Shown piece by piece: positions 2,865-51,763 of a stretch of 51,934 nucleotides of DNA (its first letter is position 1; every line of letters begins with the position of its first letter). The notes under the pieces are model-generated. The model made no database searches. It was given only the letters and a program-made list of their open reading frames with translations, and was not told the origin of the DNA. This stretch comes from a virus, in the IMG/VR virus record IMGVR_UViG_3300037340_000128, positions 1 through 51,934 of that record; one strand, 5' to 3'. Made by a program: the position numbers and the translations under genes.

Positions 2865-3581
2865 TCATGCGCGGGCTTCCAAGAATCCGGCGAGCTTGGC
2901 CGTGGCCTTGAATTGCGGGATCGGGTCGAGAGTTTTGAACGCAGATGTAAAGGCGTTCGACAAACTCCAAAGGGAGCGCGATTGGAATTCTTCAACCTGC
3001 GGGTTGAAGTACAGATCGTGGACCGGCCGGGCCAGGTGCTTCGGAACTTCGAGGTCCGATTCGATGAACGCCTGGTAGATCAGGAGCTTGGCCGAAACGT
3101 CGGTCAGCTGCGAGTCGCGCCAACGGTCGACGGCTTTTACCATCGGATCGAAGTTGCGCTGCATCTGATCGACGCCAACTGACAATGCATTTTGAAGCGA
3201 GAAGTGTTTCGAATGCTTGGCGAGTACGGGTTCGAAGTCGCCCTTGAACGCCATGTTCTGGCAGACGAAGACACGGTAGCCGACGGTCATCGCGAGGCGC
3301 ATGGATTTGTCATGCGAGTTGCGGATACCGATTGCGAACCGGCAGCCGTTGAATGTTGTTTCGAGCTCCATGAGCCCGAACATCTTCATGCCGTCTTTGG
3401 ATACGGCATACTCCTCGGCGTGGATGCCGATGTGGCGGAAGCCGAGAGTTTCGACAAGGGCGTTCACCACTTCGTGATGAGGCACGGGTTTGTGCGTTGC
3501 GGTGCCGAGCGGCGTGGGTACAAGCGCGAGCTGTTGGCGATCGAGCTTCCCCTCGTACGAGATGAGCGTAGAAGTTTCCAT
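2865..3581 (-). CDS. DUF932 family phage/plasmid protein
   Basis: A 238-residue protein resembling the DUF932 family of phages and plasmids, recognised from the HKPVPHHEVVNALVETLGF, ELETTFNGCRFAIGIRNSHD and GYRVFVCQNMAF segments and the typical length. Members are widespread on mobile elements, but a biochemical role is not established. An AGGGAG Shine-Dalgarno lies 5-10 bases before the ATG. Between this gene and the next one upstream are competing hairpin stems (3638-3665). Confidence 0.7.
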   Translation of the reverse strand: METSTLISYEGKLDRQQLALVPTPLGTATHKPVPHHEVVNALVETLGFRHIGIHAEEYAVSKDGMKMFGLMELETTFNGCRFAIGIRNSHDKSMRLAMTVGYRVFVCQNMAFKGDFEPVLAKHSKHFSLQNALSVGVDQMQRNFDPMVKAVDRWRDSQLTDVSAKLLIYQAFIESDLEVPKHLARPVHDLYFNPQVEEFQSRSLWSLSNAFTSAFKTLDPIPQFKATAKLAGFLEARA

Positions 3582-3637
3582 AGTTCTCCCTATTCAGTTG
3601 TGAAGTTGCGGATTCGAGCAGTGTGCTCGGGACCACC

Positions 3638-3665
3638 TAGCGGGTCGAAAGCGCTAGATGGACCC
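3638..3665. promoter_or_regulatory. Two competing hairpin stems
   Basis: TAGCG (3638-3642) can pair with CGCTA (3652-3656), while GGGTC (3642-3646) can pair with GACCC (3661-3665). The two stems share base 3642 and interleave, so they exclude each other, as in an attenuator. The site precedes the DUF932 gene on the minus strand. Short stems, so the case is weak. Confidence 0.25.
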
Positions 3666-3673
3666 GAAAACGC

Positions 3674-3880
3674 TTAGGACTGCGTAACGGGGAAAACTAC
3701 TGTCGCGCCGGACTGATGTGTCTCTGTGAACGAGACGACTGGATCTGCCGCGGGTGCCGGTGCTGCTGCGATGAGCGCCTGCAAGTCGGTGATGATCTGC
3801 GCGACTGCCGCCGGAACTCCTTCGAGTTGGGTCGTATCAATCGCTTGCGCTTCGGCTAAAACGCTTTGTAATGTGGGCAT
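3674..3880 (-). CDS. Small Ala/Pro-rich protein
   Basis: A 68-residue protein beginning MPTLQSVLAEAQAIDTTQLE, with an amphipathic N-terminal half, an Ala/Pro-rich linker and a beta-rich tail. Not recognised. The leader carries AAAGGTCGCAAAC about 27 bases before the ATG, a shared element of several genes here, and no Shine-Dalgarno. Confidence 0.5.
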   Translation of the reverse strand: MPTLQSVLAEAQAIDTTQLEGVPAAVAQIITDLQALIAAAPAPAADPVVSFTETHQSGATVVFPVTQS

Positions 3881-3933
3881 GGAATGATGATGTTTATGTT
3901 TGCGACCTTTTCAATGGGAGTGGGGCTTCAATG

Positions 3934-43076: not shown

Positions 43077-43856
43077 TCACGTCTTCACCGGCTTAATCCA
43101 GAGGACTTCGGTTCGCTTTCGCGCGCCATCTGCTAGACTTGAACGCTCGATACGCTTCCATCCCTTGTATAGAGAGTTATAGAGTGAGGACGGGTAGCCG
43201 CTAAGGAGAACGTTGCCCTGAACCCCGCGCAATTCCTTGGAGAGTTGGACGTGCTGACGGTCGGTCATTTCGAAGCGATACGCCTTGTTCTTGATGCCGA
43301 CGCGAGTCGAATGAACATACGGCGGATCGACGTAATGCAATGTCTTGGCGGTATCGTGCGCCTTGATAACCTGGATGGCTGGACGATTTTCAATCACTAC
43401 GCCACGCAGGCGTTCGACCAGTTCGGGCAGCACGTCGGCATAATTCTTCCAATCGTGTGCCGGCGTGGTCCCGCTTCGGTTGCTGTTGGCCCGAAAGCCG
43501 CTCTTGCGTCGAATCGAATCTGAACCGAACCCAATGTAGCTTTTGATGATGGTCCTTCGTGCACGTTCGAGTGGATTCGATGACTCATCATATGCTCCAA
43601 GAAACTCCTCTCTGGCGAAGGGCGTCAGCGTTAGAGCGTCTCTAAGAGATTCGCCGTCATCACGCATGACCCTAAATACATTTACGACTTCGCCGTCCAA
43701 ATCGTTGTAGATCTCGGCGTAGCTTTTTGGCTTTCGCAAAAGCACGCTCGCCGCACCGCCAAATGATTCCGTGTAGATTCGATGCTCTGGAAAGTGGAAG
43801 ATAATCCACGGGGCAAGTATCCATTTGCCGCCATGGTAACGAAGTGCTGGTCTCAT
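43077..43856 (-). CDS. dam: DNA adenine methylase (D12 class)
   Basis: A 259-residue protein with RYHGGKWILAPWI at the N-terminus, the AdoMet motif ESFGGAAS (30-37) and the catalytic DPPY (177-180). YIGFGSD and LLSGYPSSLYNSLY are further family features. It should methylate adenine N6; the target (GATC or another) cannot be read from sequence alone. No cognate nuclease is adjacent, so it is an orphan, probably protecting phage DNA or tuning expression. The leader has TAGGTCGAAAAC 23 bases before the ATG. Confidence 0.9.
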   Translation of the reverse strand: MRPALRYHGGKWILAPWIIFHFPEHRIYTESFGGAASVLLRKPKSYAEIYNDLDGEVVNVFRVMRDDGESLRDALTLTPFAREEFLGAYDESSNPLERARRTIIKSYIGFGSDSIRRKSGFRANSNRSGTTPAHDWKNYADVLPELVERLRGVVIENRPAIQVIKAHDTAKTLHYVDPPYVHSTRVGIKNKAYRFEMTDRQHVQLSKELRGVQGNVLLSGYPSSLYNSLYKGWKRIERSSLADGARKRTEVLWIKPVKT

Positions 43857-44410: not shown

Positions 44411-44788
44411 ATGCGGATCAGATTCCTCACTTTGTGTTTTCTGCTGCTTTCTGGATTTCAACTGAGCGCTGAATTATTGGTGAAACAATACCGAGAACAG
44501 ATCAAATCCACCGACGCCGCCGTGCTTACATTTGTAAAGCTATATGTGCAAGGCCTTGGCGACGGAATTATTTGGGCTAACTCAGAAGTCGAAACGCAGA
44601 TGTCGAAACATCTCTTCTGTCAACCAACCAAGCTCGCCTTGACGCAGTCCAATTATCTGAACATCCTTGATCGCCAGATAGAATATTCGAAAACTCTTTT
44701 CACCGAGGCCGAACTTGAAAAAGCCCCAATAGGTTTTTTCCTGTTGAAAGGACTAGTGGACACGTTCCCCTGCCCGAAGGGAAAGTAG
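44411..44788 (+). CDS. Secreted Rap1a/Tai-like protein, paralogue 1
   Basis: A 125-residue protein with a signal peptide (MRIRFLTLCFLLLSGFQLSA) and a helical domain like the Rap1a/Tai immunity family: LYVQGLGDGIIWANSE, LFCQPTKLALTQSNYLNILD, and a C-terminal GLVDTFPCPKGK. The two Cys (FCQP and FPCP) probably form a disulphide. Rap1a proteins protect the periplasm from type VI amidase toxins; this role is not shown here. First of three tandem copies. No ribosome site; a -10 box lies 7 bases before the ATG. Confidence 0.65.
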   Translation: MRIRFLTLCFLLLSGFQLSAELLVKQYREQIKSTDAAVLTFVKLYVQGLGDGIIWANSEVETQMSKHLFCQPTKLALTQSNYLNILDRQIEYSKTLFTEAELEKAPIGFFLLKGLVDTFPCPKGK

Positions 44789-44845
44789 GCGGAGGCGGAG
44801 CTGCGGAGCACGAAAGTGCGGAGCGCGGAGCCGGAGCAAATCTGA

Positions 44846-44851
44846 TAGAAT
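44846..44851 (+). promoter_or_regulatory. Extended -10 TGATAGAAT, leaderless start
   Basis: TGA-TAGAAT ends 8 bases before the ATG at 44860. Part of an intergenic segment repeated before the third paralogue. Confidence 0.6.
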
Positions 44852-44859
44852 GCCCGGAC

Positions 44860-45228
44860 ATGCGGACCCGACGAGCAGTCTTATGCTTTTTGATTATCAG
44901 TGCGATTGAGGTAAAAGCTGAGATCAGCGTGAAGACGTATCGAGAGAGGATGGCTTCAGACAACAAAGCACTGGTAGAACTGACGAAACGATATATCAGG
45001 GGTCTCGGAGAAGGAATGGAATGGGCCAATGGAGAGGCCACGAATAGGAAAACGCCTCTGTTTTGTGCACCTGACATGGCTCTTGGCACGGAGAATTTCA
45101 TAGATATCCTCAACCAGGAAATCAAAAGGATGTCACCTCTAGAAACGGCAGCGGAGCTTGAGGAAACGTTTATAGGTTTACTACTGATGGACGGATTGCA
45201 GAGAGTGTTTCCTTGTAAACACAAATAG
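44860..45228 (+). CDS. Secreted Rap1a/Tai-like protein, paralogue 2
   Basis: A 122-residue protein with a signal peptide (MRTRRAVLCFLIISAIEVKA) and the same domain as its neighbours: RYIRGLGEGMEWANGE, LFCAPDMALGTENFIDILNQ and LQRVFPCKHK. Both Cys are kept. It differs strongly from paralogue 1 in sequence, so the duplication is not recent. Apparently leaderless. Confidence 0.65.
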   Translation: MRTRRAVLCFLIISAIEVKAEISVKTYRERMASDNKALVELTKRYIRGLGEGMEWANGEATNRKTPLFCAPDMALGTENFIDILNQEIKRMSPLETAAELEETFIGLLLMDGLQRVFPCKHK

Positions 45229-45268
45229 CGAAGGCGGGGCTGCGGAACGCGGAGCCGAGCACCTTTGA

Positions 45269-45274
45269 TAGAAT
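45269..45274 (+). promoter_or_regulatory. Extended -10 TGATAGAAT, leaderless start
   Basis: TGA-TAGAAT ends 7 bases before the ATG at 45282. An earlier in-frame ATG overlaps the -10 box itself and so cannot be in the mRNA. Confidence 0.6.
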
Positions 45275-45281
45275 GCCCCGC

Positions 45282-45644
45282 ATGCGGACACTCGTGGTGA
45301 TGGCGTGCTTTCTGGCTCTCGGTGCGTTCGAGGCAAGGGCCGATTACAAGGTGAAGGACTATAAGTTCATGATGGCTTCGACGGACAAAAATGTGGTCTT
45401 TGTGATGAGGACATTTGTCAACGGCCTCGGCGCTGGAATCGCATGGGCCAACACTGCGAGCGAAGAGAAACTGTATTGCCAGCCTCCGCAGCTGGCCTTG
45501 GCCGTCGAGAACTACATAGATATCATCAACCGCCAGATCGCGAAGTTCGCTAAAAAAGAGACCGAATCCAAGCTGGAAGATGAGTACGTAGGGTTAATGC
45601 TGATGATGGGCCTCACGGAAACATTCCCCTGCGGCTCGAAATAA
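45282..45644 (+). CDS. Secreted Rap1a/Tai-like protein, paralogue 3
   Basis: A 120-residue protein with a signal peptide (MRTLVVMACFLALGAFEARA) and the shared domain: TFVNGLGAGIAWANTA, LYCQPPQLALAVENYIDIIN and LTETFPCGSK. The ATG at 45282 is chosen because it aligns with the starts of the other two and lies just downstream of the -10 box. The segment before it is nearly the same as before paralogue 2. Confidence 0.65.
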   Translation: MRTLVVMACFLALGAFEARADYKVKDYKFMMASTDKNVVFVMRTFVNGLGAGIAWANTASEEKLYCQPPQLALAVENYIDIINRQIAKFAKKETESKLEDEYVGLMLMMGLTETFPCGSK

Positions 45645-45668: not shown

Positions 45669-45896
45669 TTGGACTTCCACTTTCACATCCCGCTTATGTC
45701 ATGGCAGCACCTCTTGTGGCTCATCGGAGGAGCGTTGATCGGGGCCGTGATTACGCTGGTCGTATTCCATTTCGTCAAACACCGCATGGAAAACCGCAGC
45801 ATTGAAATACAAGCGAGTCACATCAAGGACTTGGAAAATACAGTCGCGGAGCTTAGGAAAAAGAGAGATGAGCTTATGGATCGACTAGAAAAGTAG
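45669..45896 (+). CDS. Membrane-anchored coiled-coil protein
   Basis: A 66- to 75-residue protein: one transmembrane helix (LLWLIGGALIGAVITLVVF) and a coiled tail (ASHIKDLENTVAELRKKRDE). It starts either at TTG 45669, leaderless, or at ATG 45696 (MSWQHLL). It overlaps the 3' end of the oppositely directed ATPase gene by 23 bases. Function unknown. Confidence 0.5.
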   Translation: MDFHFHIPLMSWQHLLWLIGGALIGAVITLVVFHFVKHRMENRSIEIQASHIKDLENTVAELRKKRDELMDRLEK

Positions 45897-47130
45897 CCAC
45901 GCTATCCATCACCTGCTTGCGAGAGACGCTGTAGCGGGTGCGGGATTCGTGGAGAGCTTTTTCAAACGCCCGTTTCTGCGCCTTCCTGCCTTTCACGTTG
46001 ACTTTGAGCTGCGGCGGAGCTTTGAGCAGATCGACTTCGGGGCGGTCGGATTCGTTGAACGTCCGGCAGTAGAACTGATAGCGCGGAAGCTCCGTGATCT
46101 GTGAGGGGAAATATAGCTTTTCGTCGTTCCAGTTTTTTATCATCGTCTCTGCATCGTCGCCCGAACAGTTGAAAACGATCTGCGTGGCCGCGTTCGTCAG
46201 GATGTCGTGCATGAAATTCACTTGGTAGAAGCCCTGGAAGGCCGTACAGAGGGATATGCCGTACTTCCTCGCCTCGGCTAGCAGGGTTCCAAACCTGCCG
46301 CCGTGTACTGCATTCTGGGCTTCGTCAGCCACGATAAGGAAAGGCGGACGGGTTGCCTGTCCCTCGCGCTTTAAGGCAGCGATGCTGAACATGGAAATTA
46401 TGAGGGAGTAGAGAATGCCAGCCGTCTCCTCGCCCAATGCCCCTTTTGAGAGGCGACAGATGATAATCTTTCCAGAGTTCATCGCGTGCAAGAGATCAAG
46501 CGATTCGTGCCAGCCGACGATCGAAAGGATGTTGGGACGCATGAGCTTCGCCACTTTGTTGACCGCGGGCATGAAGGTATCTTGGTTTCGCATCGAGCTG
46601 ATGAGCTTTTGGAACAGTTTCACGAAGGGGTTTACGGAGGCATCGAGTAGGCCATCCCGGTAGGATTCGTCCAAGAGGAATCGGAACACATGCACGAGCG
46701 TCGGGTCTTTTACCTTCTCGCATACCGCGTCGAGGTCGTTGCGGACGTTGTAGGGCGTGGCGTTGCCCCACGCGCTATCGCTGCCAGCCAGGGCTTTTAA
46801 GATCGTGAGGCAGGTTTCCTTCGCAAGCTCCAATTCTTCTGGGTCGGTGAAGTAAAGCGGATTAAATTGCGGATTGCTGTCGGCATCGGGATCAATGAAG
46901 ATAATGTCCTCGCGGCGGTTCTTGGGGATCAGGAGGGGAAGCCGGTTGGCCGTATCGCCGTGCGGATCGCAAAACAAGCCACCGTATCCTTGGGATACGA
47001 AATCAACGAAGATGTTTTCGAGAAGCGAAGATTTGCCCGCGCCAGAACCACCGATGATATTAATATGCCGCGCGGGGTCGATGCGGTAAGATGCGCCGCC
47101 GATAGACTTTGTGCCAATGGTTATATTCAT
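45874..47130 (-). CDS. Conjugation-type ATPase (VirD4/HerA-like)
   Basis: A 418-residue P-loop ATPase. ITIGTKSIGGASYRIDPARH leads into Walker A GGSGAGKS; GLFCDPHGDTANRLPLLIP and IIFIDPDADSNPQFNPLY are typical of type IV secretion coupling proteins and HerA helicases. Walker B is FLIVADEAQN, followed by GTLLAEARKYGISLCTAFQG. The start at 47130 has GGAG before it; the frame is open for 20 more codons. No transmembrane segment, so it is a soluble form. It sits with a second ATPase and a replication-relaxation protein. Confidence 0.75.
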   Translation of the reverse strand: MNITIGTKSIGGASYRIDPARHINIIGGSGAGKSSLLENIFVDFVSQGYGGLFCDPHGDTANRLPLLIPKNRREDIIFIDPDADSNPQFNPLYFTDPEELELAKETCLTILKALAGSDSAWGNATPYNVRNDLDAVCEKVKDPTLVHVFRFLLDESYRDGLLDASVNPFVKLFQKLISSMRNQDTFMPAVNKVAKLMRPNILSIVGWHESLDLLHAMNSGKIIICRLSKGALGEETAGILYSLIISMFSIAALKREGQATRPPFLIVADEAQNAVHGGRFGTLLAEARKYGISLCTAFQGFYQVNFMHDILTNAATQIVFNCSGDDAETMIKNWNDEKLYFPSQITELPRYQFYCRTFNESDRPEVDLLKAPPQLKVNVKGRKAQKRAFEKALHESRTRYSVSRKQVMDSVATFLVDP

Positions 47131-47237
47131 CCCAGCTCCGAACCCCATAGGGAGAACGCCCAGCGGGGTTCGGGACGTGGGCATATGCAAGAACCAATGT
47201 CCTTGCCCCGCGCCTTACGGCGGCGATTATATTCAGT

Positions 47238-47912
47238 TTAACTTTCTGGTTTCAAAATGGAATACGCGCGGTCTTCGTAGTTATGCGGCGTTGCCCAAAT
47301 CTTGCCGGTGGGATTTTGCTTGAACAGGGTTTCGGTAGTGAACCAGAGCTTGGTGGTGTCGAGATTTTCGTGGACGCACTGCGCCAAGACATTTTCCACG
47401 CGTTTTTCGGTGGGCAAGATGAAATAGGAACGGGGGAACGTTGCATTGTAGTCGCGGAGTTTGTCGATCGTAAGGGGATTCTGCAGGACATACTCGAACG
47501 GCGTCCATGTGCCATCGAGGTTGAAAAAGAGGTCGGGGACTTCGCCGTGAAAGTCCTTTTGTAAATCCGCCCGCCAGCGCCGGATTTCACCCGGAAAGTT
47601 GGCGGCGAAAATCATCTGGCAGTTCGTGATCCCGATTTCGTGAGGGATTTGGTTCGTGGCCTTGCGGCCGATGTACCACTTGCGCGTGAGGTATCCCCGC
47701 TCGATGCACTTCAACGCACCTTTTTCGGTAAGGAAGTACAACCACGGGGAAAAGTCGTTCTGCCGCGCCTTGCCCAAAAGCCCGGCGTCGTAAAAACGCT
47801 CCAGCCGGACATAGACGGTTATCTGTTTCCTGCCGGTAACGAGCTGGACTTGGGTGGGCGTGAGGTAGACGTATTTGGAAAACGCTTCCCAGAACAAATC
47901 ATCCTTCGGCAT
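47238..47912 (-). CDS. Replication-relaxation family protein
   Basis: A protein of about 224 residues starting MPKDDLFWEAFSKYVYLTPT. The N-terminus is a winged helix (YLTPTQVQLVTGRKQITVYV, DAGLLGKARQ); the rest includes RKATNQIPHEIGITNCQMIF, GEVPDLFFNLDGTWTPFEYV and a PD-(D/E)xK-like middle. This matches the replication-relaxation family found on mobile elements next to coupling-type ATPases. The start is ambiguous: 47984 would give 24 more residues but overlap the next gene by 86 bases. Confidence 0.65.
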   Translation of the reverse strand: MPKDDLFWEAFSKYVYLTPTQVQLVTGRKQITVYVRLERFYDAGLLGKARQNDFSPWLYFLTEKGALKCIERGYLTRKWYIGRKATNQIPHEIGITNCQMIFAANFPGEIRRWRADLQKDFHGEVPDLFFNLDGTWTPFEYVLQNPLTIDKLRDYNATFPRSYFILPTEKRVENVLAQCVHENLDTTKLWFTTETLFKQNPTGKIWATPHNYEDRAYSILKPES

Positions 47913-49293
47913 CGAAGATACGCGGGCGAGCTCTTTGTCGGTCGCTTGCAACTTCTCCTCCTTTTGGTGGATCGCTAGGGGCATGTCGGTGTGATGCTAT
48001 GAATTTTACGTATTCAGGGGAATCAGGCAAGTACTCGTCAAGATCGGGGATTTCGAATTTCTGGGTTTTGTCCGGAAGAATGGCAAGCGCGTGCCGCTTC
48101 GGAAGTTTCAGGGTTTCGGCCAATTTGAGCCGAATCTGTTCCGGGGTGTAGTCCTCCCATCCGGTCTGCACCTCCACCGCATAGGGTCGAAGCCGGTCGG
48201 CGACAGTTTGCGACTTTCCATATTCGGATTCGGTTTCGCTGGTTCCAATATCGTCCTCGTATTCGGTGATGTGGGAGATGCGCGGCTGGCGGTGGTGGTC
48301 TTGCGCCATCTCGGCCCCGTAAGCGATATCCACGAGTTCCAAGCGGGCTTTCGGGGGCAGTCCGCCCATAATGACCTTGATCCCGCAGGCGACGGAAATC
48401 GCTTCGCGTACTTTCTCGTCGAACTGCTCTGAATGGTGGTGAGCCACGGTCATGAGGAAACCGGCCGAGGTGATCGTGGTCAACATATCCCCGATAGTCG
48501 GCGGGACAAAGAGGTGTGGTTCGTCGAGATCCACGAAATAGGTTTTGTGCTTCCCCGCGTTTTCCGTTCCGACTTGGAAAAGCTCGGCGAGGAAAAAGGA
48601 GAGTGCAGCTTTGCCGGCGGGAGCGGACAGTATCCCCGATGGGGAGGCTTTGATGAAGAGAGAAATTCCGTCGCGGTAGAGATCGGAAAGGAAAACAGGT
48701 TCGGTCGTAAGCATGCGGCGGATCGCATCGGACGTGACGAACGGGCGTAAAAACCTGCGCAAGGCTCCCGTCTTGTATTCCCAGCCTTTCGCGTCCGTCC
48801 CAGCGATCGCGCGCGCTTGGTAATCGTACTCTTCCGGCACGAGGCCGATCCAGGATTTCCGGTTCTCGTATCGAAGGAGCCGCATCGCCTCCCAAACGGG
48901 TTCTTGGGAGAGCGCAAGATGGGCGAAGAAACATTCCGCGGTTTCTTCTTCCGGGAAGCGGGATTCGAACCGCTCCCCTTCGGGAGTGACGTACGTAGCG
49001 AGCGCGGAGACGTGGGCGGAAAGGGAGCGGCCAGGTGGAACCAGAAACGGATTCCACCCAGCGCCCCAACCGTCCGAGACGTTGATAAATTTGGCAGGGT
49101 AGTCCGGGCAGGCATGGGCGATAAAAGCGACCAAGGAATCGAACGAGTCGTCCTTACCGCCCACAATTTTGATCAAGCGATTACCGGCAAGAATATTCCT
49201 CTGGTTCCAGTAAGTAAGGCACGAAGTCTTGCCTACCTGCGGCGCGCCAATCAATTCACAATGCGTAGCGTAATGAGCCCACTGCGGGTTCAT
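47899..49293 (-). CDS. Second conjugation-type ATPase
   Basis: A protein of about 464 residues starting MNPQWAHYATHCELIGAPQV. Walker A is the variant GAPQVGKTS and Walker B is TYFVDLDEPHLF. The segment PPTIGDMLTTITSAGFLMTV corresponds to the sensor region of VirD4/TraG-like proteins. A C-terminal part from about 380 is less conserved. The start at 49293 overlaps the preceding stop (ATGA). Together the two ATPases resemble a coupling/pumping pair of integrative elements rather than a phage replication helicase. Confidence 0.6.
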   Translation of the reverse strand: MNPQWAHYATHCELIGAPQVGKTSCLTYWNQRNILAGNRLIKIVGGKDDSFDSLVAFIAHACPDYPAKFINVSDGWGAGWNPFLVPPGRSLSAHVSALATYVTPEGERFESRFPEEETAECFFAHLALSQEPVWEAMRLLRYENRKSWIGLVPEEYDYQARAIAGTDAKGWEYKTGALRRFLRPFVTSDAIRRMLTTEPVFLSDLYRDGISLFIKASPSGILSAPAGKAALSFFLAELFQVGTENAGKHKTYFVDLDEPHLFVPPTIGDMLTTITSAGFLMTVAHHHSEQFDEKVREAISVACGIKVIMGGLPPKARLELVDIAYGAEMAQDHHRQPRISHITEYEDDIGTSETESEYGKSQTVADRLRPYAVEVQTGWEDYTPEQIRLKLAETLKLPKRHALAILPDKTQKFEIPDLDEYLPDSPEYVKFIASHRHAPSDPPKGGEVASDRQRARPRIFDAEG

Positions 49294-49502
49294 GAGGCAC
49301 CGCCCGTGGAAGCGATAGCGCCGCTTAGCGGTAGCGACGTAGCGAGGTATCCGACCGCTGCCAATAGGCAAATGAACGATAGAGAAATTAGGGAGGGTAC
49401 CTCGCTAGGGAAGCGGCACGGGCGAACAGGCATAACCGCCGTGATAACAAGGTTTTGGGCGGTAGTCCGGCCGATTTTTTTTCGGGACTCGATTATATAC
49501 AT
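49290..49502 (-). CDS. Small membrane protein of the ATPase operon
   Basis: A 70-residue frame starting MYIIESRKKIGRTTAQNLVI with a hydrophobic segment (SLISLSFICLLAAVGYLATS). The start follows the previous stop by 3 bases (TAAAGCATG) and the stop overlaps the ATPase start (ATGA), which argues for real translation. Composition is atypical, so confidence is moderate. It could anchor the soluble ATPase at the membrane. Confidence 0.45.
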   Translation of the reverse strand: MYIIESRKKIGRTTAQNLVITAVMPVRPCRFPSEVPSLISLSFICLLAAVGYLATSLPLSGAIASTGGAS

Positions 49503-49505
49503 GCT

Positions 49506-50042
49506 TTAAACTTCGTCGGGGTGCCGGAACAGGTTGCGGATACGCGTTTCGGCGAAGTCTTTGATGTGGGAATGGAGGGATGCCCCCTTAACGTTGGAGA
49601 CATCCACTCCGGCGATCTCAGCGATCTGGGTAGCGCACGCCGTTTTCGCCTTGAGATCAGTAATAATCTTTTCGGCGGGAGAGAGCTTTACTTCTGGTGT
49701 TGGCGGAACGGGGTCGAGCTTCAAGGCGATTACGATGACCCTCGGGTTGTAATCGCCCAGCCCGTTTTTTAGTAGCTCGGATTCGAGCTGCCGGTAGAGT
49801 TGCCGGCCTTCTTGCGGATCGTCGAGTTCGATAGCCCACTCGTTGGTGATCTTCTGGGCTTTGCCATGAATCTCACAATCACGGTCGCGGTAGTGGAACT
49901 CCGTGGTGACGTCCATTTGACCGCGCTGCATCCTGGAATGGAAGTCATGCCGATGGCTCTCCTTGGGATGCACGGAGCGAAGGATGTTGCCGAGCACGAT
50001 CAACGCTACAGCGATGACGAGGACAACCAATAGGACGCTCAT
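49506..50042 (-). CDS. Membrane-anchored protein of the ATPase operon
   Basis: A 178-residue protein: N-terminal transmembrane helix (VLLVVLVIAVALIVLGNIL), a beta domain with DVTTEFHYRDRDCEIHGKAQ, and a helical C-terminus with a winged-helix look (TACATQIAEIAGVDVSNVKG). The family was not recognised. It may link the ATPases to the membrane or to DNA. Confidence 0.55.
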   Translation of the reverse strand: MSVLLVVLVIAVALIVLGNILRSVHPKESHRHDFHSRMQRGQMDVTTEFHYRDRDCEIHGKAQKITNEWAIELDDPQEGRQLYRQLESELLKNGLGDYNPRVIVIALKLDPVPPTPEVKLSPAEKIITDLKAKTACATQIAEIAGVDVSNVKGASLHSHIKDFAETRIRNLFRHPDEV

Positions 50043-50302
50043 GCCGCCCTCCTTCTGGTTGTCCGCCGCTCGTACTCAGCGAAAGCAACTGATTCCGGGA
50101 CTTCCAAAAAGTTGTGTTTGCCGTTGCCAGAGTTCAGCACGCCCGGCTTCGGTTTGCCATCGTGGCCGATGAACCATCGTCGGACTGTGTGATATTTCGG
50201 ATGGCAAGTGGTTGGCTTGCCACTGGGGGTGAAAGGTCGTCTCGGCCCGAACCAGAGTTCGCACAGTTCGTCGAGAGAGTAATGGCGCTCGGAAGTAAGC
50301 AC
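50039..50302 (-). CDS. Excisionase-like DNA-binding protein
   Basis: An 87-residue protein starting MLTSERHYSLDELCELWFGP, with a MerR/excisionase-type layout: SLDELCELWF helix, HTVRRWFIGHDG recognition region, then GKHNFLEVPESVAFAEYERR. The basic end (RRTTRRRAA) suits DNA contact. It opens the operon that carries the ATPases and lies next to the integrase, as excisionases usually do. Direct proof is absent. Confidence 0.55.
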   Translation of the reverse strand: MLTSERHYSLDELCELWFGPRRPFTPSGKPTTCHPKYHTVRRWFIGHDGKPKPGVLNSGNGKHNFLEVPESVAFAEYERRTTRRRAA

Positions 50303-50381: not shown

Positions 50382-50489
50382 GTGTAAACAACTTTATGAG
50401 CATTCGCCGATAAGCCAAGCGGCTCCGTGCGGGAGTAGCATCCCGATCAGCTACAGTGGCTCCATTTTATCCGAACAACCAACGGTATT

Positions 50490-50555
50490 ACAAGCAAAAT
50501 CAGCCAGACAAAAACGTGGTTTAGCACGTTTTGCAGGATGAGTTATTTTGCTTGT
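50490..50555. repeat. 11-bp inverted repeat around the integrase terminator
   Basis: ACAAGCAAAAT (50490-50500) and ATTTTGCTTGT (50545-50555) are perfect complements. The right arm encodes the end of the integrase (VQAK and the stop); the terminator hairpin lies between the arms. Confidence 0.5.
50511..50532 (-). terminator. Rho-independent terminator of the integrase gene
   Basis: On the minus strand AAAACGTG pairs with CACGTTTT around a 6-base loop and is followed by TG, with the T run inside the 3' arm (CACGTTTTTG). It lies 11 bases after the integrase stop. Confidence 0.7.
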
Positions 50556-51595
50556 ACCAGAGCTGGTTTCCAGGTCGTACGGATGTTTTCGGAGAGCTTC
50601 TTTTGCCGCGCACGATCCCATCCCGCGTATACGGTGGCAACCAATTGAGGGCTATTACCAAGGATCATCGCAACTTCCGTAACGGTAACTCCCTGCTCCA
50701 AAAGCGATGCCGCGAGTGTGTGGCGATAGCGATGGGGATGCGCGCCTTCCACTTCGGCGCGGGTAAAGAGCTTTGAAAGGTCATCGCGCCAATTGTTGAC
50801 GGCGGTCTGCTTCTTCCCTTCCCCGGTCGCGAAGAAAAAGTCATTGCTCTTGTTGGGACATTTTTCGAGGGCTTCAACGACGTGCTCAGGCAGCGGAAGC
50901 CAAACAGGCGCACCTGTTTTTGCAGTATATAAAAATAGGTTTCCGTCTTTCAGCTTTCGGCGCTGGAGCATGACTGCGTCGGCGATTCTCAAACCACTAT
51001 GACGGAGCAAGAGAACCATCGCATAGTGCCTCGGATGCTTGGATGCTTCGGCTTCGATGGCTAAGAGTTCCTCGGGCTCGAAAGGCGAAACCTGTTTCGG
51101 AGGGACTTTCGGCATCGCAAGATCGAGCGCCGGATTCTTTTTTACCCACTCCTGCCGCATAGCGTGCTTCCAGAAACTCCGCAGGCGTTCGATGTACTTT
51201 GCGCTCGTGAGCGCGGACCAGGTCCATTCGTTCCTAAACTTCTCGATGAGGGGCGTGTTGATTCCGTTCAGCGGGAGATCGGTGAACGCTGCGAGTTTGT
51301 CTAAGATGATTTCGAACTTTCGCACCGTGGCAGACGAGACGTTTTTCTTCTTGAGATGTTCGATGAAAAGTCTCTTGGCTTCGGCTACCGTGACTGACGG
51401 CTCGGCCGGCGCTTCACCGTCCTCGATCTGGCGCTTTAAGATTTCGCCGCGGGTCCAGCTCCGCGTTTTCAAACTGCGCCGGATGTACTGTCCCTCAACC
51501 GTTCCTTCGCAATGGACCGCGCACCGGCACTTCCTGAAGTAGCGGTCTTCCTTATGGGGACAGGTGGATTTGTGCCGTCGCCAAAGGATGAGCAT
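50543..51595 (-). CDS. int: Tyrosine recombinase (integrase)
   Basis: A 350-residue site-specific recombinase. An N-terminal Cys/His-rich patch (CPHKEDRYFRKCRCAVHCEG, residues 12-31) is followed by an arm/core-binding domain (about 68-165) and the catalytic domain. Visible catalytic residues are Arg203 (SGLRIADA), Lys226 (YTAKTG), His288-x-x-Arg291 (HPHRYRH) and Tyr323 (TVYAGWD). The usual His of the LGH box is Asn here (ILGNS). It faces the 3' end of tRNA-Sec. This integrase type resembles ones I associate with Acidobacteriota. No Shine-Dalgarno before the ATG. Confidence 0.9.
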   Translation of the reverse strand: MLILWRRHKSTCPHKEDRYFRKCRCAVHCEGTVEGQYIRRSLKTRSWTRGEILKRQIEDGEAPAEPSVTVAEAKRLFIEHLKKKNVSSATVRKFEIILDKLAAFTDLPLNGINTPLIEKFRNEWTWSALTSAKYIERLRSFWKHAMRQEWVKKNPALDLAMPKVPPKQVSPFEPEELLAIEAEASKHPRHYAMVLLLRHSGLRIADAVMLQRRKLKDGNLFLYTAKTGAPVWLPLPEHVVEALEKCPNKSNDFFFATGEGKKQTAVNNWRDDLSKLFTRAEVEGAHPHRYRHTLAASLLEQGVTVTEVAMILGNSPQLVATVYAGWDRARQKKLSENIRTTWKPALVQAK

Positions 51596-51668: not shown

Positions 51669-51763
51669 TGGCGGAAGCTAGTGGGAGTCGAACCCACCTG
51701 CGACACGGAGTGCCCCACGCTGGTTTTGAAGACCAGGCCCAGCACCGGCCAAGACTAGCTTCC
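51669..51763 (-). tRNA. selC: tRNA-Sec (anticodon TCA), attachment site
   Basis: A 95-base gene including CCA. It has an 8-bp acceptor stem (GGAAGCTA/TAGCTTCC), a long D arm, anticodon loop CTTCAAA with TCA, a long variable arm and a T arm (GTGGG/CCCAC around TTCGACT). These are the features of bacterial selenocysteine tRNA. Its 3' end points at the integrase, so the phage probably integrated into the 3' part and kept the gene intact. The host should therefore make selenoproteins. Confidence 0.93.

Follow-up and report, generated by a model that had tools for sequence, protein, structure and literature searches.

Background

Proteins of the Replic_Relax family (PF13814) have been classed with the MobC relaxase superfamily in integrative mobilisable elements (IMEs) (PMC5357655), and a kinship between MOBC relaxases and PD-(D/E)XK nucleases has been described (PMC12857230). 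In phages, pairs of a DNA motor gene and a Replic_Relax gene have drawn three earlier guesses about their role: DNA injection (PMC3853050), plasmid segregation (PMC9658697) and, for the motor/Replic_Relax cassette, induction (PMC9476937). Here, we analysed the virus record IMGVR_UViG_3300037340_000128 over its whole length of 51,934 bp, called the window below. Its phage encodes a replication-relaxation protein (RR) between two VirD4-type ATPases (ATPA and ATPB), preceded by three small genes (p87, p178, p70) and lying beside an integrase gene (int). We assign a probability of roughly 0.5 to the reading that this is a relaxosome-like "nick and pump" module, integral to and exchangeable within a lineage of temperate siphoviruses and acting on the phage's own DNA.

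A MOBC-type protein between two coupling-type ATPases

The window RR taken alone scored below the Pfam cut-off for Replic_Relax (E 0.016; 15.8 bits, cut-off 25.3), and its family was assigned through its relatives. Eight of ten relatives matched PF13814 (best 2.1e-14), as did all seven related proteins from Bacillus phages (best 3e-16). In an hhalign comparison, the RR profile matched that of the Bacillus-phage Replic_Relax proteins with 94.7% and E 6e-8, and the D..E..K..Y spacing was much alike in the two. An alignment of ten sequences (A2) holds H115, P150, D151, E164, K175 and Y179 among its invariant residues. Two domains, the first of them a winged helix, make up the AlphaFold2 model of RR (pLDDT 82.7), and the C-terminal domain modelled alone reached a pLDDT of 84.6. 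When this domain was compared with the PDB by Foldseek, YaeQ, Hjc, RecU, Cdn1 and EcoT38I came out on top, with moderate matches whose best E was only 1.7e-3; the predicted structure has the PD-(D/E)XK (restriction-endonuclease-like) fold. Judged from its relatives, alignment and model, RR is probably a member of the MOBC relaxase superfamily with a predicted DNA-binding winged helix and a nuclease fold. The initial annotation had advised a search for a relaxase elsewhere, which this assignment of RR makes needless, and we found no relaxase of another family (PF03432) in the window. Only profiles and structure gave links for RR: tblastn searches of phages and plasmids, with the RR of a relative as query, returned nothing.

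On both sides of RR lies a gene for an ATPase with a TraG/VirD4-family motor domain (Walker A/B). ATPB matched TraG-D_C with 26.7 bits, above the Pfam cut-off of 22, and phrog_5156 at 1.7e-32. It is the best conserved gene of the module (mean column identity of 72% in alignment A4), and its ratio of nonsynonymous to synonymous substitution (dN/dS) of 0.015-0.1 between close relatives points to strong purifying selection; ATPA and RR are much less constrained. The ATPA sequence on its own matched no family. In its alignment (A3), the Walker A motif GAPQVGKT is invariant, as are D283 and E284, and the A3 profile matched TrwB (6e-8), IcmO/DotL (3e-7) and the ATPB profile (5e-31). By these profile comparisons, ATPA and ATPB are paralogues, the nearest kin being TrwB and IcmO/DotL for ATPA and TraG/VirD4 for ATPB. 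The proposal that coupling-protein-type ATPases and a replication-relaxation protein lie next to the integrase was thus borne out.

A transmembrane (TM) stretch was looked for in ATPA and at the N terminus of ATPB and was not found. The genes upstream of ATPA in several relatives encode one to four TM stretches, and the 700-residue ATPA of contig G026 itself carries two. Since the TM segments lie in p178 and p70 here and are fused to ATPA in G026, the comparison suggests that the membrane part of the coupling protein is often split off into separate genes. No family match was obtained for p178. p87 likewise matched no family, and its label "excisionase-like" comes solely from its size, its position and a helix-turn-helix (HTH) look; small HTH-like open reading frames (ORFs) occupy the same position in contigs L007, L011 and L012.

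Recurrence and exchange of the module

Related contigs were retrieved with ATPB as the query. The order ATPA-RR-ATPB recurred in 13 further viral contigs (L002, L005-L009, L011-L013, G018, G021, G026 and G033), of which the four G contigs were reached independently through TerL. The question whether related phages carry the same operon is answered by these contigs, three of which (L007 = G005, L008 = G006, L012 = G010) are prophages bounded by attachment (att) repeats. Among 24 TerL-related records, RR and ATPB always occurred together, in seven of them (L014 not counted). The other 17 have neither; full reading of six of these showed that each stops no more than about 2.4 kb from the primase gene, so that absence in this set is uninformative. 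Virus-calling pipelines may therefore cut the module off. The uncultured siphovirus lineage with the three-gene module occurs in many metagenomes.

Motor and RR genes overlapped by 14-176 nt in the 16 cases listed. Contig L006 has an HNH-endonuclease-like ORF between ATPA and RR (3408-3926); a homing insertion may here have disrupted the overlap typical of the two genes.

We compared the window with G005, its close relative. The integrases are 95% identical and most head proteins 91-97%, whereas identity falls to 40% for ATPA, 56% for RR and 52% for ATPB. From 42.5 kb as far as 50560, at the extreme end of int, the two share almost no DNA similarity. Because phages that are otherwise near-identical differ this much in the module, the module, as judged from these identities, is swapped between phages as an allele.

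The three long relatives G005, G006 and G010 carry TerL and the window's gene order across the head and tail genes. Exact direct repeats of 22, 22 and 21 bp, respectively, bound them, each at the 3' end of a tRNA gene, and head genes, tail genes, module and integrase all lie within these repeats. The inferred attachment core of the window, TGGCGGAAGCTAGTGGGAGTCG (from 51669), is the same 22-mer that bounds G005, and the two share the tRNA-Sec core and the host flank. By homology with G005, about 2.7 kb is missing between the left end of the window and the distal att site. The relatives at tRNA-Met and tRNA-Leu have different integrases. In G006 the integrase is located at the opposite end from the module, which argues that the module does not simply travel with int. 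Contig L013 encodes a serine recombinase upstream of the module (426-2147); the module thus occurs with more than one integrase type.

Related pairs in cultured phages and plasmids

An FtsK/SpoIIIE ATPase paired with a Replic_Relax protein was found in 57 Bacillus-type phage records, usually with overlapping genes. Two phages with this pair, Pony and Novomoskovsk, have no annotated integrase. The pair is also present on Priestia plasmids, in one of which a ParA gene lies near.

A structure search of RR against viral proteins placed Bacillus phage JL and phage G gp146 on top, and gp146 is annotated as "27.3 in SPO1". The SPO1 gene for gp27.3 overlaps that for gp27.4, which was matched by ATPB itself and by its profile (7e-12). 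Two independent searches, one with the RR structure and one with the ATPB profile, thus led to neighbouring genes of the virulent phage SPO1. SPO1 gp27.3 reads PD...FVEVD...K...Y; the RR profile against this single sequence gave E 4.5e-4 with a probability of only 33%. Resemblance to the module was also observed for phage G gp155 ("VirB-like") and gp156 and for SPO1 gp27.3/gp27.4 (L109, 7195-11337; L110, 1320-4857).

Proposed function and alternatives

We propose that the module would be expressed together with p87 once the prophage is induced. RR would then bind, and possibly nick, a cognate site on excised or incoming phage DNA. The small membrane proteins p178 and p70 probably provide the anchor that G026 fuses to ATPA, and the membrane-tethered ATPA and ATPB would move that DNA. 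The purpose would be replication, segregation or handling of phage DNA in the cell, rather than conjugation from cell to cell. Use within the phage's own cycle is favoured because the related pair occurs in virulent phages. Of the options offered by the initial annotation, which was partly supported overall, the third, a phage system made up of coupling-protein components, agrees best with these data.

Several points weigh against this proposal. Where most relatives have E and Bacillus phages have D as the second acidic residue, the window RR has V166, so that catalysis by this allele is uncertain and nuclease action of RR is putative. Neither the stretch that separates int from p87 nor the region 42.3-46 kb held convincing origin-of-transfer (oriT)-like repeats, and no RR site was found. 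Since the phage already encodes a primase, an exonuclease and NinG, a replication role for the module is not obviously needed. Finally, one of two B. subtilis phages that are 96% identical carries the motor/RR cassette and the other does not (PMC9476937), which indicates that the cassette is dispensable there.

Defence or superinfection exclusion is an unlikely alternative, in which membrane-bound motors and the nuclease-fold RR would attack other incoming DNA and so shield the lysogen. Defence systems commonly combine a motor with a PD-(D/E)XK protein. The position at the prophage end, the block exchange between near-identical phages (window and G005) and the optional cassette of B. subtilis phages (PMC9476937) are consistent with it, as is a match of ATPB to the PADLOC model mad8 at 8.5e-15. 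However, ATPB fits the non-defence family phrog_5156 far better (1.7e-32), the window RR matches no PADLOC model, virulent phages carry the motor/RR pair, and no different system was seen at the module's place in the lineage contigs that were read. Membership of MADS (the Mad1-Mad8 set) was rejected, as only mad8-like and weak mad3 matches were obtained, in ATPB and ATPA, and the operon holds no other MADS component.

Mobilisation is about as doubtful. Here, RR would nick the excised genome at an oriT, and ATPA and ATPB would pass the DNA to the conjugation channel of another element, in the manner of mobilisable plasmids such as CloDF13 and of IME_Class_8 elements. PF13814 is counted among the relaxase families, the order of int, small HTH gene, coupling ATPase and relaxase is that of compact IMEs with PF13814/MobC and VirD4 (PMC5357655), and the MOBC plasmid CloDF13 brings its own coupling protein, which is also active in DNA relaxation (PMC7431656). 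By analogy, the gene set resembles a mobilisation unit (MOBC relaxase with its own VirD4) more closely than an integrative conjugative element (ICE). Against this, motor/RR pairs are common in phages without an annotated integrase and present in SPO1, a virulent phage for which conjugation would hardly be of use; no oriT-like repeats were detected beside int or on the downstream side of the module; no type IV secretion system was found in the phages examined; and functional P1-like phages otherwise have almost no relaxases (PMC10879196). If mobilisation were true, the phage would spread in two ways. That it uses both virions and relaxase-driven, particle-free transfer through a helper's channel, by means of its own MOBC-type relaxase and coupling ATPases, is less probable still.

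The type IV secretion genes VirB4 (PF03135) and TrbL/VirB6 (PF04610) were absent from ten records including the window. A full ICE, as had been suggested, was rejected on this basis, and the module is not a self-sufficient conjugation system. A second, independent ICE or IME inserted beside the prophage, also raised at first, is very improbable and was rejected: the module's genes do differ from those common in phages and lie at the extreme end by tRNA-Sec, but a single pair of att repeats encloses head, tail, module and integrase in three relatives, RR and ATPB occur in seven contigs carrying this lineage's TerL, and a search of the window for a second integrase found one tyrosine recombinase and no serine recombinase.

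These findings link three sets of genes that had so far stood apart: the "replication-relaxation + FtsK" pair annotated in dozens of Bacillus phages, the SPO1 genes for gp27.3/27.4 and the three-gene module of uncultured siphoviruses. Common to all three groups is a DNA motor with a winged helix-turn-helix (wHTH) and PD-(D/E)XK protein of the MOBC relaxase superfamily. This suggests that either phages run relaxosome-like machines on their own DNA, or MOBC relaxases and coupling proteins have passed between phages and plasmids. The claim becomes testable in SPO1, a classic laboratory phage.

Gene layout and neighbouring genes

All six ORFs named earlier are present, tightly packed on the minus strand at 45874-50302 (Table 1). 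The stop of p87 overlaps the start of p178 by 4 nt, a gap of 3 nt separates p178 from p70, RR starts within ATPA with an overlap of 86 nt, and ATPB begins 47 nt past the end of RR. Judged from relatives, the true ATPA start is probably the ATG at 49293, which overlaps the p70 stop; ATPB of relatives starts at the position matching the ATG at 47130. A promoter-like sequence (11/12) precedes ATPB at 47255-47226. An imperfect inverted repeat of 24 nt at the 3' end of int (50477-50568) may be a terminator.

Table 1. Features of the window and attachment repeats of three related prophages (positions in their own records)
Feature	Position	Strand	Basis or site
Tyrosine integrase, 350 aa	50543..51595	-	Phage_integrase match 6e-17; sole PF00589 match in window
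tRNA-Sec	51669..51763	-	ARAGORN and Rfam RF01852; 3' end is inferred attachment core
p87, small excisionase-like protein	50039..50302	-	No family match
p178, N-terminal TM anchor and soluble domain	49506..50042	-	One strongly hydrophobic stretch, residues 3-21
p70, small single-TM protein	49290..49502	-	Hydrophobic stretch, residues 35-53
ATPA, VirD4/HerA-type ATPase, 490 aa (longest ORF)	47899..49371	-	Walker A; profile matches
RR, winged helix and PD-(D/E)XK domain, Replic_Relax	47238..47984	-	Alignment, relatives' matches, model
ATPB, VirD4/TraG-type ATPase	45874..47190	-	TraG-D_C; phrog_5156; alignment A4
G005 att repeats	2112 and 54342		tRNA-Sec
G006 att repeats	106 and 51353		tRNA-Met
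G010 att repeats	107 and 52245		tRNA-Leu

The remainder of the window is a complete-looking siphovirus, with TerL, a portal with a head morphogenesis domain, a major head protein, a tape measure and a tail tube. TerL, portal, major head protein, tail genes and integrase identify it as a temperate tailed phage (Caudoviricetes, siphovirus type). On the plus strand, 44411-45644 encodes three tandem secreted-type proteins that are mutually 41-43% identical, two of which weakly resemble Rap1a, a type VI secretion system immunity protein (E 0.045 and 0.16); they are perhaps lysogenic conversion genes. A solitary D12-class adenine methyltransferase (43077-43856, minus strand) lies inside the block that differs from G005. 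In the left flank of G005 (L016, 1274-2097), a DUF1778-like and GNAT-like pair, recognised by eye, ends just outside the distal att site and is a possible toxin-antitoxin.

Comparison with known systems

ATPB is also related to a VirD4/TraG-type ATPase of Patescibacteria (L004, Dojkabacteria, 793 aa), whose C-terminal half is 31% identical to ATPB. Unlike ATPB, it has a long extra N-terminal half and is chromosomal, with no RR alongside.

Among mobilisation systems, CloDF13 MobB-MobC, pAD1 TraX and streptococcal IME_Class_8 likewise place a PF13814/PD-(D/E)XK relaxase-type protein beside a VirD4-type ATPase, and IMEs share with the module its compactness and the presence of xis and int. Mobilisation units of this MOBC type, with a coupling protein of their own, come nearest to the module in layout. 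The CloDF13 record does not label its mob genes by that name, and an RR-like ORF for comparison was not found there. The module differs from MOBC units in its two coupling-type ATPases, its anchor in separate small genes, the complete tailed phage around it, the putative nature of nicking and the lack of a recognised oriT. An IME is without virion genes, whereas here the full head and tail set lies in the same att unit.

In the virulent myoviruses, SPO1 (gp27.4-gp27.3) and phage G (gp155/gp156/gp146), an ATPB-related VirD4-type ATPase accompanies an RR-like protein, as its direct neighbour in SPO1 and in its vicinity in G; unlike in the window, the ATPase has 906 residues with a long extra N-terminal part. 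The pair of Bacillus, Geobacillus and Staphylococcus phages (Pony, Novomoskovsk, Eoghan, vB_BhaS-171) and of Priestia plasmids has, like the module, a motor followed by a wHTH and D..E.D..K..Y protein. In the phage pair the RR is shorter and the A3 and A7 profiles match weakly, and the pair has one FtsK-type motor, whereas the window module has two motors of the VirD4/HerA type.

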